Origin: Dunaliella salina
Taxonomy: Eukaryota > Chlorophyta > Chlorophyceae > Chlamydomonadales > Dunaliellaceae
DNA length: 10,334 bases
Direction: 5' to 3'
Assembly: GCA_002284615.2 (NCBI GenBank)
Contig: MU069726.1
Coordinates: 260,676-271,009, forward strand
A model generated the notes under the pieces. It was not told where the DNA came from and ran no database searches. It saw nothing but the letters and a program-made list of their open reading frames with translations. The position numbers and the translations under genes are program-made. Of the stretch, positions 175 to 10,192 are shown one piece after another; within the stretch, counting starts at the first letter, position 1, and each line of letters opens with the position of its first letter.

Positions 175-356
175 TCATACCTCAGCACTGTTCTGTATGA
201 TTGTTGCAGGGGCGCGGGCAGCTGCGGGCGTGGTCGACGGGGGTGCATGAGACAAGCGTTGCCTCTTGGCTTGGCCAGAGTCATCATCTTGGCTGTCCTC
301 TGTGGGTGCTCCTGCCTGACCTGCCCCATTTGCAGCGCTGGTTTCCTTTGTCTTGC
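175..356 (-). CDS. Exon 6: C-terminal charged and Ala/Pro-rich tail, stop codon
   Basis: The acceptor is GGCTTTTTGTGCAG ending at 357. The first bases GC complete the Gly codon from exon 5, giving ...FVSKA-G-KTKETSAANG. The exon continues with AGAPTEDSQDDDSGQAKRQR, an acidic stretch followed by a basic patch that could act as a nuclear signal, then an Ala/Pro/Thr-rich segment and ...IIQNSAEV before TGA at 175-177. A donor-like GAG|GTATGA at 181/180 overlaps the stop, so a further exon beyond the window cannot be excluded. A second acceptor at 480 is in the same frame and would add 41 residues. No green-algal TGTAA polyadenylation signal is seen before the window ends. Confidence 0.55.
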
Positions 357-2471
357 CTGCACAAAAAGCCACCCAAAGGACCCCTTCAACTTCACCTCCC
401 TGTTGTCCTGAAAAGCTGTCCTGTGTGGGTGCGCCTGCTTGACCTGCACCATCTGAAGCGCTGCTTTCCTTTGTCTTGCCTGCACACACAAGAAGCAAGG
501 TAACATGCTTATTCTCTGTCTTCAGCTGTCCTCTGTGGCTGCGCTTGCCTGACCTGGCCCGTTCACAGAGCTGCTTTCCTATGTTATGCTTGCACACACA
601 GCCGCCCAAGTGACCAATGTGTATGTTTCACTTCATCTGAGGTATTTAGATGTGCTGTCTGTGGCTAGCAGTCAGTCGTTTTGACTGGAGGCCTTCTTTG
701 CTGCTGTAACCTGTCATCTGTGGGTGCGCCCGCCTGACCTGCTCCATCAGCAGCGCTGCTTTCCTTTGTCTTGGCTGCACAAAAAGCCACCCAAAGGAAC
801 CCTTCAACTTTGTCTCCCTGGTGTCCTGAAAAGCTGTCCTGTGTGGGTGCGCCTGCCTGATTTGCACCATCTGCAGCGCTGCTTTCCTTTGTCTTGCCTG
901 CACACACAAGAAGCAAGGTAACATACTTATTCTCTGTCTTCAGCTGTCCTCTGTGGCTGCGCTTGCCTGACCTGGCCCGTTCACAGAGCTGCTTTCCTAT
1001 GTTATGCTTGCACACACAGCCGCCCAAGTGACCAATGTGTATGTTTCACTTCATCTGAGGTATTTAGATGTGCTGTCTGTGGCTAGCAGTCAGTCGTTTT
1101 GACTGGAGGCCTTCTTTGCTGCTGTAACCTGTCATCTGTGGGTGCACCCGCCTGACCTGCTCCATCAGCAGCGCTGCTTTCCTTTGTCTTGCCTGCACAA
1201 AAAGCCACCCAAAGGACCCCTTCAACTTCATCTCCCTGGTGTCCTGAAAAGCTGTCCTGTGTGGGTGCGCCTGCTTGACCTGCACCATCTGAAGCGCTGC
1301 TTTCCTTTGTCTTGCCTGCACACAAAGCCACCTAAACTACAGACGCATCTTGCTAACTGTGTGCCTTCAGCAAAGCTGTCCACTTGAGGTGCTCAACTTG
1401 ACCCGTCCCATCTACAGTGCTCCTCTCCTTTGTCTTGCCTGCAACCAAAGGACTAACGCAACTCGCTCCATTCATTTGCTCCTTTCATCTTAAAAAAAAA
1501 AAAAACTGTTTGGGATTGCTTTCCTCTGTCTTGACTTTGAGTAATGCCAACGACTGATCTTGCTTTCTCTTTGCCTCCAAGTTTGTGATTGTCCTTTTTT
1601 GCATGGACTGTGAAGTTGCAAGGTGAAGCCATTCTGACGCGACATCAGAAACTTTTACGGGTGTGGCAAAGATTTTGTGGATAAGGCAGAGATTACATGG
1701 GTAAAATGTGTGTATGATGTGGATGTAGCAGCAATAATCCAGCAATGGGATGTGATGCTGGTATGAGGATGTCATGCGGACAGTGTGGATGCAAAGGTCA
1801 TGCCGCCGTTAGAATCCTGCATTAATGCGATGCTGTGTGAATGCCATGCAGACCGCGTGGATGCCAGCGTCATGTCGGCATGGTGCACTGCATTAATGTG
1901 TTTTATGGCGCCGCTATATGGATGTCATGCAGGTGATGTGGATGCCAAGGTCATGTGGACATGGTGCACTGCATTCATTAAGTGTGGATGCAAAGCCGCT
2001 TTGCGGATGCCTTGCAGACCATGGATAGGATGCTGTTCCGTAGATGTCATGCAAACAGTGTGGATGCCAAGGTCATGTGGACATGTTGCACTGCATCCAT
2101 AAAATGTGGAGGCAAAGCCGCTTTGCGGATGCCTTACAGACCATGGATAGGATGCTGTTCCGCAGATGTCATGCAGACCGTGTGGATGCCAAGGTCATGT
2201 GGACATGACGCCCTGCACAAATGTGGATACGCAGCTTTGTGGGGTGTCATGTAGACCGTGTGAATGCCCAGGTCATGTCGACTTGGCGCCATGCAAAAGC
2301 TTGCCTCCTAGGAACGCCAAGTTTTTGCACTGCCCTCTGAAGTCTGGTTGCACAGGAGCAGCACACTTGCAGTGCCGGAATTCAGACGAGTATGCATGGT
2401 GCACCCTGTAATGCCTCGCCTTGCACAAGCCTCAACTTTTTGACTGCCCTCTGTGAGCTGTCTACAAAGGT

Positions 2472-2561
<90 letters not shown>

Positions 2562-5500
2562 ATGCCACTGCTCACGCTCATGTGCACAGAGTGCTGCTTT
2601 TGTGCAATCCCCTGCAAGCTCAGTTGCAGGATTTACTTACTTTAAAGATGAAAAGGGCATGTCTGCTTTATAAAAAGAAGCTTATCATGCTTGTCTCCGG
2701 TATGAAGGACCAGGTAGAACACAAAGGGTATGTGCAGCCAGATACACCCACCAGTGCCTCAAACACAAATTGGGCAGTCTATGAAGGCGCTGCTCACACG
2801 CTTGTGAAGCAAACTCCAATGCACAGGCTCCTCTGCGAACAGAAGAACAAGTTTCCTACTCACCTGCTTTTGACACAAACTTGATAGCACCCGCTCCCAC
2901 AGGCAGTGGTGCCTTTGGCCCCTGCTCTTCTCCCAGTTGCAACTGCTCTTGAGGACTCAACATGGAGCGCGCACTGCTCACGGCCTGCGCAAGAATTGAA
3001 TTTGATCTGACTCAGCAGAAAGCACGCATGCTTGCAGCCCGAGCAGGTTTGTAGAATCCGGACTTCAGAACTTCCTGCAACATGTGTACGTGACAGGAAC
3101 TTCATGTGAAAAAATTGCATGTGTGTATGTATGTACTTCACATGTGTACGTGACAGTTGCTTGCACTCGGAAAGGCAATACTTGCTCATAGCCTCTGTGA
3201 GCATGGAGCACAGGTAGCCTGAGTTGGAAAGAAACACATGGCAACACAAGCATTTCAGCGCTGCCTACACGTAGTCATATAAATCCAGGAACCAGGCTTT
3301 CATTGGCACTCAGGAGGGCAATTTGTGTGTCAGGGGCAAGGTGAGGAATTCTGAGTTCGCTGTCAAAAAAATTGGTGGCAATCACTCCTTGCAAATTGGC
3401 ACAGCCTGTGTGAGCATGGATCACAGGTAGCCTGTTTTGGGAAAAAACACATAGCAGCACAAGCACTTCAGAGCTGCCTACACTTGGTCATATAAATCCA
3501 GAAGAAGGGCATTTATTGGCGCTCAGGTCAATTCTTGTGTCAGGGGCAAGGTGAGGGGTTTCAAGTGCGCTGTGAAGGAACTGGTGGCAACCAGGAGTCT
3601 TCCTTGCAAATTGGCACGCCTACATTTCAGGGATCATCCTTTAGCTTTACTTACTTTGTGTTGTTACAAAGGCATGGAGAATGGGCCATGCCCCTCTCTG
3701 AAAATGTTCTGTCTCCGGGAAAACCCCCTGACTACTCTTCCTTGGTCCCAGCAAGGGGAGCAGCAGCAGCAGCAGCAACACCACCACCACCACCACCACC
3801 ACCACCACTATCGACCCCATAAACACGAGTGACAACGGCATTGGAGGGTGCTCCAGCAGCAGCAGCAAGTGCGCAAGCATCTCTCTGATAATCACAGAAG
3901 CTACGAGCATGGCAGCGGATGGCCATACTCCAGTTGATGTATGAGGAGGGGGGGCCATGCCAGGGAGCTCCCCCTTCTTTTGGAGAGACCTCATTTATCC
4001 CCAACTTCTACCTACAGACAGCCCAAATACAGGCAACAAACTCTTTGGACATGCCATATGGTTCTCAGAAGGAGTACCCTCAGTCGCCAAAACCTTGAAA
4101 AACTTATCAGAGAGTAGGCTCAGAGGTGGTTACAGAGCGCGAAGCCTCCTGGAGTAATATCCCGATAAAAGGTACCAAAAAACATCCAGAACTACGGAGA
4201 TTTATATGGATACCTATAACCGCTTGCAGAGGAGAAGTGCATGACATAGGTATCAATTCCTCCCACGCCCAGGCAGCTGTATGCATCTCTGCTCCAAGGC
4301 TCATTAGCTTGGATAATGACATTTACAGGCTAGTGCTTAAAAGCGATACTCAACCCCTTTTTCATGTACAAGAGCCCGTAGGCCTGACAGTCCTCTACCT
4401 TAAACTCTGGACGAGGTATTCAACCCAATTTTCAGTCTGGACTTGAACATTTCACCTGGACCTTTCAAGGATCATCAGAGTAAACCTTTCATGCAACGCA
4501 GACCTTTTGTACACAAAGCAGCACCCACCTTCTTGAGCTCCAATGCAGCAGCATGTGCATCCGCTGCACTCTGCTGTTCGCCTCCACCCACAGTGATGGA
4601 CTCCCCCATGTCGTACACAGTATACCTGCATGGAAACCGATTGTCCCACTAAGGTAAACTCCCCCAGGTCATTCTCAGCACAGAAACTGATTGCCCCACA
4701 GAGATGGACTCCCCAATTCCGCACACATGTACCTGCGTGAAAACCAATTGCCCCCATGTTAAATCAGTTGTTCTAAAGTGATGGACTCCACCATGTTGTA
4801 CACAGTATACCTGCATGGAAACCGATTGCCCCATTAAGGTAAACTCCCCCAGGTCATTCTCAGCATAGAAACTGATTGCCCCACAGAGATGGACTCCCCA
4901 ATCCTGCACACATACACCTGCGTGAAAACTGATTGCCCCATGTTCAAATCAGTTGTTCCAAAATGATGGACTCCCCCATATCGTACACAGTGTACCTGCA
5001 TGGAAACCGATTGTCCCACCAAGGTAAACTCCCCCAGGTCATTCTCAGCATAGAAACTGATTGCCCCACAGAGATGGACTCCCCAATTCCGCGCACATAC
5101 ACCTGCATGGAAAACGATTGCCCCATATTATGGACACCCCAATGTCATACACCATGCACTATCAGAGAAACCAATTGTTCCACAGTGATGGACCCCCCCA
5201 CTTTTTACATAGTGCACCTGCTGAGATTCCACTTGCCCCAAAGAGGTGGACCCCCCAATGTCATACACCATACCCCGGCAAAGAAAATCAATAGTTCCAA
5301 AGTGATGGACTCCCTCAGGTTGAACACAATAGTCTTGTACAGAAAACGTTTGGCATCATCATTTTTCACACTATGCACATGCAAAGGCGCGAATCAATTC
5401 TATCCACCTCTACCGATGCACAGGCCTACATTGCGTAGTAAATTGTGCGCCTGTATGGTCAGTGTTTCATTGTCACTTGTAACCCATGCTCCTGAACAGG

Positions 5501-8500
5501 TGCTGACAATCTTTTCCTTTGCGCTCCGGTATCTAAAAGACCCTTTGGACGTCATTACCTGGGTACAAACCAAGCACTTGAATATGTTGCACACTGTGCA
5601 ATTATACAGGTTCATCTGGTGTTGCTGCCACAAACAGACTTAGAGCAGTGCCAAGCGGCAGCTTCTCTGAGCTGCGCGGCAGCTTCATCAACATAGGCTG
5701 TTCCTTGTATGAGCATGCATCATTGTTAGGTATTTGTGAAGGGACGAAAAGCTTGTGAGAGCAAATGAGGCTGCCAAGTGTGCAGCGTCCCCTCCTCTGT
5801 GATCTCATTTTCATTTTGATGCCACAAAGAGGGGCTAGGAAGGCAGCATTGCAAATTTTTCATATGAGACCCTCACAAAGGCCAAAGGAGCTCAATATAT
5901 AATATATATACAAAGGCCAAAGGAGCTCAATATATATATATATATACAAAGCTCACTTAAGCCTCAATTGAACAATGCTAAACCTTCCTCTCACGACCAA
6001 GCACTTCAGCTCCACCACACCCCCTCATGGAGATGTTACTGAACCTCCGCCCCTCACCCTAATTTGGATGTTACCAAATTTCCGCCACCCATCCAAGCTC
6101 CAGGGCCACGTAAGCCCTGTCCCTCACCCTTACTTCAATTTCACACACAACGCAGGCGGGCAAGAAAAGTACTGAAGGCCACGTCAATTTTTTGGGTGAA
6201 GCCCCCCTGACCCACCCAACACCCTCATAACCCCACTTCCAGTGACCCAATCCAGGCATGAAAATGGGTACCGGTCTGCTCCTCTATTAATTCTACATCC
6301 ATCTGCTTACTGGGTGAAATGGAAGACCTCGTTGCAGCAGAGACATTGAGCAAATACTGAGCAACAGACGCCCATATATACCTGCTGTTACAGGCACCCA
6401 CAACTGGTGTGTGAACTCACACATTGCCCTCCTGACTTCACCATGCAATAACACATCATGCATCCTCACAATTCTGGATGTTTCGATTAGTTGCATACGT
6501 TCCCCTCTGCACATGTTCCCCTCTGCACCCCCTGCTGCCCACACCCTTGCGCGCATGGTTCTGACTCCCATCCGTGCGCACAGACCCAACATTTTACCCA
6601 ATTTGCACCAAGAAGATGCCAATCGACAGCCTGGAGCCGACATAGGGACGGACCCAAAAAGTCCTCCCCAAAAAGACCTCCCCCAGTCCGCCCACCACCC
6701 CCCACCTCCTCCAATTGAACCTCCATATACACCAACTGAGCCCTCAACATGAGGAACGTCTTGCCTCCTAATGCCTCCCGCATAATGGTTAAAATGAAGA
6801 ACACACAAGTAATGTTACACAAAAATGTTTGCATAATCAACACGCTGTACAGTGGTGCGAGCCTGGTGTGGTCTCCTCGGATTGCATCCTCGAAAGGGAC
6901 GTGGGGGGCGTGGGTTCAAATCTGTGGAGGTTCGATAAGGCGGGCCCAGTGACGGGTGCTAAGGTCATTCCTCCCGTGATGCTTGGGGGCTTGTCCCGCA
7001 TGCGTAGCTTTTCCTTTTCCTCTGCATAATGTCGCACACAAGCTCTGTCTTTGCCCTGCTGTGGAGTTTCAAGCATCCCTGCCTCCACTGACGCTTACTT
7101 ACACTCTGGATCAGTACCTGCTGCTCGAAGTGCTGGCTTTTGCACAAAAGCCAGGGCCATCTGCCCAGGCATAAACTGCTACCTTGATTCCGTTGCTGGG
7201 GGAAAGCTGCACAAGACCTCCACGGCTGGCTCTGGGTCGTCCCCACCTCCCAAACCTCGATGTGTGCCTCCATCATGTTTTTGCAGTGTCCCCCGGCAAA
7301 ATCTCGCAGCATCATTGAGCGGACTGAGGGCAGCTTCAGTCCAGAAGCGCTGGTTCTTGTTGTGCTGGAAAGCTTGGAAATGCACATCTGCCAAATTGGT
7401 TGCACAGGCCTCAGGCAACACATACCGTACCGCTACGTGACCATTACGCATTATATATCTTTTTTCAAGGGGTGCGTAATGCGTATTGCGTAATGGAGTT
7501 GTTCAGGGGGGTGCGTAAAGGTGCGTAAAGGTGCGGAAAGGTGCGTGAAGGTGTGTAAAGGTGCGTAATGGTGCGTGAAAAAATTCTTTGAGCAGGGAAG
7601 CGTATTGACGCGTAATGGAGAAATTTAATTGCTGAAAAAAGGGGGGTGCGAACTGGTCACGGACTTGTACGGTAGTGCCTCCACGTGCTAGCAATTCAGC
7701 AAGTCTCAATCCTAGGTCATAACGAGGTGTTTCGTATGCTTGGGTCGCACAAGGACACATACAGGGATGAGAAGCCAACGAGCCTGTTTGAGGGGTTATA
7801 CATTGGGGAAGACTCGATCGCTGCCAAAGTATCCACTTTCTGGGAACTCCACACTCAGCAGACTTGACGCAGACAAACCCTGGCTTTTACGAATATAGCT
7901 GCATGGGCCGTCCCTGCCACATCAACACACCTGGACCCCCAACTTTAGCACTCACCGCTCCGGGTGCTTAACACGGTCCGGGACATACCTGGCTTCTGCT
8001 ACTCCAGCTGCTCATGCCCTCTCTGCCACACTAACACACCTGGACCCCTTTCAACTTTGGCACTTACCTCTCAGGCTCTTGACATGGTCTCACACGCATG
8101 CCCTCCCTGCCAAACCAACACACCTGGACCCCCAACATTGGTACTCACCGCTCGGGGTGCTTGACATGGTCCGGGACAAACCCTGGCTTCTGCCAATCCA
8201 GCTGCACGCGCCCTCTGCGTCCCCTGCCCCCACCACCTCTTCGCCACCTGTCTTCAGAGCCTCCACCCCTAGGTTTATCACGCAGCAGGCTCTGGTGCCT
8301 CGGAGCAGGGGCGGCCATGGAACCTGCAGCAAAGGATGTGAGGATATGGCAGTGTGAGGCAGCATTGGCTGCAGTGTGAGGTCCACTCCACCACCTCTTT
8401 GCCACCTATCTTCAGAGCCTCTGCCCCTGGGATTATCATGCAGCAGGTTTTGGTTCCGTGGAGCAGGGGCGGCCATGGAACCTGCAGCGGAACCTGCAGC

Positions 8501-10192
8501 GGAACCTGCAGCGAAGGGTGCGAGGATATGGCAGTGTGAGGCAGCATTGGCTGCAGNGTGAGGTCCACTCCACCACCTCTTTGCCACCTATCTTCAGAGC
8601 CTCTGCCCCTGNGTTTATCANGCNGCNGGNNTNNGNNCTGTGGAGCAGGGGCGGCCATGGAACCTGCAGCGGAACCTGCAGCGGAACCTGCAGCGAAGGG
8701 TGCGAGGATATGGCAGTGTGAGGCAGCATTGGCTGCAGNGTGAGGTCCACTCCACCACCTCTTTGCCACCTATCTTCAAAGCCCCCGCCCCTGGGTGTAG
8801 CGCGCAGCAGGTTCTGGTGCCTTGGAGCAGGGACAGCCATTTAACCTGCGCAGTCCATGCCATCAGAGCCGTGCCGTCAGAACCATGCTGTCAGAACAGA
8901 AATGCAAGCGTTGTCCAACAGTAATGGCCATGAACCTGCACAGACTGTGCCGTCAGGACAGTAGTCCAAAAGTTGGTGTCCACAGCAATGGCCAGAATGG
9001 TGGTCCGAGAATAGTTGTCCAACAGAGATAGTCAGAATAGTAGTCCAAAAGTAGCCAGGAAATGTATGGAAATGGCAGCCTGAAGCAGCATTGGCTGCGG
9101 GATGAGAAACTGATGGCCGGCTGTGCTTGCTTTAACACGTCTCGCAACAAAAGGAACCAGAGAAGTCATGAACAAAAGGAATCCAGCAAACGCCTTACGC
9201 CTGTTCATGCCCTGGCATGATGAGCGCTGTCAGAATTTGATGCATGATCACGTATAGGAGACAAATTGGGGGGAGCATTGCAAACAAGTGCTTTCCTGCA
9301 ATGTGACAAAGTAGGCAAGCATGAAGCAGCGACGCCTGCTTTTGCCACTGCCCATGCACGTGCAGGAGCACTGAGAATCTTCATCGCAAAGGCAATCAAG
9401 TTGACAAGAATGAAGCAGCAATGTCCGCACCTGCTTTGTCCGCTGGCTGTGCACTTGCATAAGTACTGAGCACCTTCATCACAAAGGCAACCAAGTCAGG
9501 CAGGCATGAAGTAACGATGCCCGCACCTGCCTTGGCCACAGGCTGTACACAACTGCAGCATTTGAGCGCCTTCATCACAAAGACAACTAAGTAGGCAGGC
9601 ATGAAGTAGTGATGCCCACACATGCTTTGGACTGGCCATGCACTTGCAGAAGTACCTAAACTCCTTCACCACAAAGGCAACCAAGTAGGCAGGCATGAAG
9701 TAACGATGCCTTGGCCATGCACTTGCAACAGCATCTGAGCACCTTCACCAAAAAGACGACCAAGTAGGCAAGCATGTAGCAGCAATGTCCGCACCTGCTT
9801 TGGCCACTGGCCGTGCACTTGCAGCAGCACCTGAGCGAGCCCGGTCCTCCTCGACTTCCATACCCTCTGCAGCAACACCAAGCTCCTACAAGCAGAGGCC
9901 ATGACGCTGAACTGTATGCACAATGAGTGGTACATTGGAGGTGAAGCAGGGACCCTTCTTCAAACTGCACAATAGCAGTGATACAGGGTCGCCAAGGAAG
10001 CAACAGCTAGAGACCTTCAGGCTTCCAGTGCAGGAGAGCGCTCTAGGAATCGGCAAGGCCTTTAAAGGAAAATTCACTGAATGACTTAAGGACTCATTAA
10101 CGCTGCCAATCCACTGTATCATTCCGATCCTGAGACTCTTCAAATGTGAACATTTAGAGTAATTGCTGGCCCTGACCCTGTTAACAAGCTCC

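Follow-up and report, generated by a model that had tools for sequence, protein, structure and literature searches.

How introns could lengthen by taking up copies of the exon edges beside them, splice sites included, and how such a gene might still be spliced correctly, are the questions raised by a 10,334-nt stretch of a green-algal genome (the window; C291:260676-271009, the assembly searched comprising 285 Mb in 1,403 contigs). An earlier sequence-only reading had described five tandem arrays at exon-intron borders here and ascribed them to repeated local duplication. On the minus strand of the window five exons (E2-E6) can be joined through GT-AG introns into one open frame of 201 codons, with mutually consistent junction phases of 1, 2, 0, and 1 along the chain. 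In order of window coordinates the exons are:

175..356, minus strand: exon 6 (E6); acceptor TTTTTGTGCAG followed by GC, phase 1 fitting the E5 donor, frame open to a stop
2864..2984, minus strand: exon 5 (E5); neither border duplicated
4529..4625, minus strand: exon 4 (E4), YTVYDMGESITV...; carries the second half of the TSSC4-like match
8149..8323, minus strand: exon 3 (E3), ...KPGFVPDHVKHPER; carries the first half of the TSSC4-like match
9831..9861, minus strand: exon 2 (E2), partial, MEVEEDRARS; open frame, phase 1 fitting E3

E6 is the last exon identified and may end either with a stop codon (175-177) or at a donor that starts at position 180. E2 appears to be the least certain exon, as it was called from its open frame and phase and not from homology, and the 10 kb adjoining the window beyond it are all N. 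The joined 201-codon protein gave a weak match to Pfam TSSC4 (PF15264; 17.5 bits, E 0.005), which rose to 18.4 bits (E 0.0027) with exons 3-5 joined. The match spans the E3/E4 junction and appears only when these two exons are joined: neither E3 alone nor a reversed-sequence control had any Pfam match, and E4-E5 alone matched only Med9 (E 0.16) and not TSSC4. As the scores of 17.5-18.4 bits lie below the Pfam gathering score of 27 bits, the gene is named TSSC4-like only. No relative of solved structure was found for the 201-aa protein at E 1, Pfam scans of the separate reading frames of the window gave nothing of note, and Rfam gave no structured-RNA match in the window at gathering cut-offs. 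The window thus read probably holds most of a TSSC4-like gene, i.e., of a splicing-factor gene. TSSC4 is described as a component of the U5 snRNP.

Five tandem arrays are present where the sequence-only reading had placed them. TRF detects four of these (periods of 418/123, 185, 182, and 95 nt) and self-alignment adds the one at 7866-8204. Alignment of the monomers to the exon edges recovered copies of the edge at the acceptors of E6, E4, and E3 and at the E3 donor. With two further large arrays that include no border, the arrays of the window are:

292..1450, minus strand: E6 acceptor array; upstream intron together with at most 65 nt of exon, 418-nt higher-order unit (TRF, self-alignment)
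1748..2298, no strand: intronic tandem array; TRF period of 122 at 1921-2217, includes no border
3187..3621, no strand: local repeat in intron 4; includes no border (self-alignment)
4587..5352, minus strand: E4 acceptor array; intron sequence together with 34-39 nt of exon, higher-order unit of 185 (TRF, self-alignment)
7872..8218, minus strand: E3 donor array; intron sequence together with at most 68 nt of exon (self-alignment, not reported by TRF)
8229..8849, minus strand: E3 acceptor array; unit of 182, up to 94 nt of exon (TRF, self-alignment)
9305..9840, minus strand: E2 donor array; unit of about 95, starting at the donor and including only 2-7 nt of exon (TRF, alignment)

In the E6 acceptor array 64-65 nt of exon are copied and eight decoy acceptors result, six of them with AG. 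The E4 acceptor array holds six decoys in which the site itself is aligned (five with AG), and a seventh, weaker one was seen in the border self-alignment. E3 is affected at both ends: its acceptor array carries exon copies of 66-94 nt and three decoy acceptors, all with AG, and its donor array copies 68 and 22-23 nt of exon, giving two decoys with the site aligned and one piece of exon only. The two arrays thus copy 94 and 68 of the 175 nt of E3 from opposite sides. The copy number of the array at 8324-8860 (E3 acceptor) may be imperfect because N bases lie inside it. No border copies were found at the E4 donor, the E5 acceptor, or the E5 donor, i.e., at three of the eight borders. The claim that every array holds a splice site with 30-100 nt of exon is consequently upheld for four arrays, at 22-94 nt, and fails for the one at 9305-9840; likewise, the multiplied acceptors of E6, E4, and E3 and the multiplied E3 donor are all present, but the E2 array holds at most 7 nt of exon. 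That most borders of the gene are amplified is correct for five of eight if the E2 donor is counted, and copies with 22-94 nt of exon are found at four. Together the five arrays, that of E2 included, make up 3,150 of 9,081 intron bases.

The border copies share about 70-95% identity with the true border, and some of them lie within higher-order units, so growth probably took place in several rounds. At the E3 donor and the E4 acceptor the exon sequence repeated in the array overlaps with the TSSC4-matching stretch, which, weak as the match is, suggests that the exon was the source of the copies and the intron the recipient. It was also claimed that each array is private to its own exon. A genome search covered two of the five arrays, using one unit of the E4 acceptor array and part of the E3 acceptor array, and found each at this locus only, with a tool that skips very common words and scores only the best candidates. 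A dispersed introner-type element was rejected on the same result. Tandem duplication of whole exons was rejected as well, since the longest exon copy is 94 of 175 nt and no border array reaches the far border of its exon. A search for a phage source of one stretch of intron gave no match, and this origin was rejected. Separately, at 7423-7674 in intron 3, a stretch of about 196 nt containing a decamer array, GGTGCGTAAA, lies between imperfect inverted repeats (28 nt, 79%); the whole looks like a short non-autonomous DNA transposon.

The decoys are largely intact. Among those with the site aligned, 19 of 22 have kept AG or GT, and 16.6 would be expected from their overall identity, so that there is no sign of selective removal and the decoys do not seem to be purged. 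Their use is nevertheless predicted to be costly: the normal C-terminus would be lost with 21 of the 22, including 18 of the 19 with an intact AG or GT. The exception is decoy 479, the one closest to E6 (window 357-479, minus strand): its use would lengthen the reading frame by 123 nt without a shift, adding 41 aa in which the start of E6 is repeated, and is predicted to yield a 242-aa protein with a repeated segment, no premature stop, and a normal C-terminus.

The sites were scored with tables derived from 16 donor and 16 acceptor sites in other genes, the present gene being left out. Five of the 22 decoys equal or surpass the real site in score. At the E4 acceptor decoy 4995 equals the true site (both 9.87 bits); at the E6 acceptor (true site 5.15 bits) decoys 1438 and 1192 reach 6.45 and 5.15 bits; at the E3 donor (9.55 bits) decoys 8067 and 7955 reach 9.93 and 9.55 bits. 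At three of five borders the choice must therefore rest on context. No context effect is needed at the other two, because the true E3 acceptor ranks first of 737 AG sites and the true E2 donor outscores all three of its decoys.

Partner sites at exon distance could provide such context. The true acceptors of E3, E4, and E5 have a strong partner site 97-175 nt away, which for E4 is a 9.8-bit donor 97 nt downstream, while for four of the five E4 decoys with AG no donor exceeding 5 bits lies in a range of 200 nt. For decoy 5102, however, a donor of 7.3 bits follows at 83 nt, and this speaks against the interpretation. At E3 a 6.4-bit donor is available to the decoys at 87 nt, the same being true of the real exon, and the true 9.6-bit donor is within reach of decoy 8481 at a distance of 333 nt. 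The E6 decoys have a choice of several 5-6 bit donors, and E6 is perhaps a terminal exon. The decoys would most likely be ignored through exon definition, an argument that is clear only at E4.

We propose, with a probability of about 0.6, that the introns of the TSSC4-like gene were expanded by ordinary local tandem duplication and that the decoys are ignored by means of exon recognition. Replication slippage or unequal exchange would have lengthened the introns, and some of the founding units would have straddled an exon-intron border. A unit of this kind would be structurally harmless because one whole exon with both borders remains and the decoy becomes part of the intron. Later rounds, including those involving the higher-order units of 185 and 418 nt, may then have multiplied the decoys. 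Most of these would be passed over if the exon is recognized as a unit, many decoys having no strong partner site at exon distance, and splicing in cells would presumably be normal.

Whether borders are preferred by the duplication process is a separate matter. Within the window, five of the seven large arrays terminate in exon sequence. When the arrays were placed at random, at least this number was reached with P 0.00013 or 0.0002, with P 0.0006 when overlap with whole exons was forbidden, with P 0.002 or 0.011 when the E2 array was counted as non-straddling, and with P 0.0025 to 0.098 when short and microsatellite arrays were added, all of them optimistic values because the gene was picked for this very feature. 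The limits of the seven arrays were set by hand from self-alignments, and one dispersed 45-nt piece (9062-9106) was left out. Counted by position, five of the eight borders meet a repeat versus 217 of 500 random positions in the window, so that borders are not clearly richer; exons are included in this and the other random-position baselines.

Borders elsewhere in the genome were sampled from eight other genes: 17 from six kinase loci found with a motif pattern (six of nine matches were taken), seven from one MADS-box gene, and eight from an HSP70 gene. We take the sampled kinase to be CDKB-like and the HSP70 to be of plastid type, which points to a green alga as the probable host. The HSP70 gene was mapped with E. 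coli DnaK to one place, 1.7 kb at a contig end; two motif patterns had given one and two places, and only one HSP70 place among these was used. Its borders were assessed by self-BLAST of the whole locus, which is coarser than the border test applied to the other 24, and more distant repeats would be missed because only 1.7 kb are available. The MADS-box locus (L026) is biased toward border arrays, as it was chosen among random stretches after coding segments had been seen beside arrays. Nine of 24 sampled 10-kb stretches were all N, and a locus that is a second copy of most of the window (L007) was left out.

A local repeat was met at 4 of 24 kinase and MADS-box borders and at none of the eight HSP70 borders, i.e., at 4 of 32 in total, compared with 56 of 500 positions drawn at random from the kinase and MADS-box loci and 82 of 500 from random loci. 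A copy that spans the border and includes 10 nt of exon or more was found at 1 of 32 borders (2 of 32 if a borderline match of 35 nt, E 0.001, is included) versus 37 of 500 random positions. An overlap of arrays with splice sites beyond chance, as the sequence-only reading would lead one to expect, is thus not seen in this small sample. The part of that reading which describes local, repeated duplication across borders is sustained as regards multiplied edges and sites, lengthened introns, and leftover decoys, but not as regards a process directed at borders. One of the kinase loci (L037, minus strand) holds one clear border duplication in another, independent gene: 48 nt around the acceptor at reverse-strand position 291 recur once, 148 nt upstream, with three mismatches and a frame-breaking 4-nt gap, and the exon start concerned encodes the HRDLKPQNLL region. 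In the MADS-box gene a gap of 2 nt separates the end of a 38-bp pyrimidine-rich array (L026 5251-5515) from an exon whose donor (approximately 5630-5730) has a weak 19-nt downstream repeat (E 0.004). Two other sampled loci showed features of their own. Translations from the minus strand of L005 (about 5648-6282, reverse-strand coordinates) resemble a Ty1/copia-type reverse transcriptase, and L027 (1414-9987) is GC-rich, consists to about 26% of local repeats, and has long open frames rich in glutamine and alanine.

It is conceivable, though unlikely, that borders are duplicated preferentially by a process directed at them, e.g., repair of breaks or R-loops at the junctions during transcription or splicing. 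The five of seven large arrays that end in exons (P 0.00013-0.1 over all placements), the duplicated acceptor in the kinase gene, and the MADS-box exon flanked by an array and a donor repeat would fit such a process, as would the rise in tandem-repeat density toward the ends of introns that the available part of a survey of Chlamydomonas and Volvox describes (PMC3887541). Borders elsewhere, however, met repeats and border-spanning copies no more often than random positions did, and two large arrays in the TSSC4-like gene itself avoid the borders. Slightly less probable still is the wider case in which duplication prefers borders throughout the genome; introns would then grow outward from exon edges, and exon definition would have to silence very many intact decoys.

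The arrays might also be partly coding, an upstream decoy acceptor being used to make an alternative isoform with protein repeats. We regard this as improbable: the isoform predicted for E6 decoy 479 is of just this kind, but use of any of the other 21 decoys would destroy the normal C-terminus, so that coding use was rejected as a general explanation, and units of 418, 185, 182, and 95 nt are not multiples of three. It is more doubtful again that intron birth is under way according to the Rogers model, with duplicated borders of AG before and GT after the junction serving as raw material for introns or shifted exon ends. The units of the E3 acceptor, E4 acceptor, and E2 donor arrays do carry AG and GT on the two sides of the true border, and a border-crossing duplication created an intron in potato RdRp, as described in the available text (PMC4974935); here, however, no new intron is visible, and each exon is a single piece that fits its neighbours in phase. 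An assembly artefact in which collapsed or mis-joined repeats mimic arrays is very unlikely. The assembly has many N stretches, N bases occur in the 8324-8860 array, and the 418-nt units at E6 are about 95% alike, so that their number could be wrong, but the border copies differ by roughly 5-30% from the true border, and mis-joining of one sequence does not produce such differences. Ordinary local tandem duplication combined with exon recognition hence remains the preferred reading. The TSSC4-like gene is a natural test of how the spliceosome chooses among near-identical splice sites.

The sequence-only reading knew of no gene with borders amplified in this manner, yet the same arrangement is on record. 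In amphioxus, boundary minisatellites termed "mirages" are described at 5' and 3' borders of the Adh3, globin, and TnC genes (PMC3087553), and tandem repeats overlap the 5' and 3' splice sites of PGBD5 (PMC3902484); both statements are limited to the available parts of these reports. The amphioxus units measure 10-72 bp in Adh3 and 150-160 bp in the globins and contain AG or GT in many cases but not all (PMC3087553; PMC3902484, available text), and RT-PCR was reported for globins with mirages (PMC3087553, available text). As in the mirages, tandem units here span exon-intron borders (four with 22-94 nt of exon and one with at most 7 nt), both types of border are affected (the E3 donor and the acceptors of E3, E4, and E6), and many units keep their splice signals (19 of 22 aligned decoys). 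Judged against what is described in those parts, the present case differs in that it comes from a green alga, affects a single gene at four to five of its eight borders, both borders of E3 among them, and has units compounded to 418 bp, with splicing read from the DNA only. The potato RdRp case consists of one tandem duplication across an intron-exon border (PMC4974935) and, as far as it is described there, comprises two copies and a new intron, whereas several copies and no visible new intron are found here. Tandem exon duplication similarly repeats exon sequence, but no whole exon is copied here. No algal border arrays were found in the open-licence literature searched, which is not a claim that reports from algae are lacking. 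Closest in lineage is the survey of units of 1-50 bp in Chlamydomonas and Volvox, in which tandem repeats are commoner near intron-exon junctions (PMC3887541); it likewise concerns green-algal introns with enrichment toward their ends, and inclusion of exon sequence is not among the features described in its available part. The kind of array is thus already known from amphioxus, and the TSSC4-like gene is an extreme case of it, its four to five of eight borders exceeding the extent described in the available parts of those reports. The finding extends boundary minisatellites from amphioxus to a green alga and suggests that lineages in which active local tandem duplication meets tolerant splicing may accumulate them.
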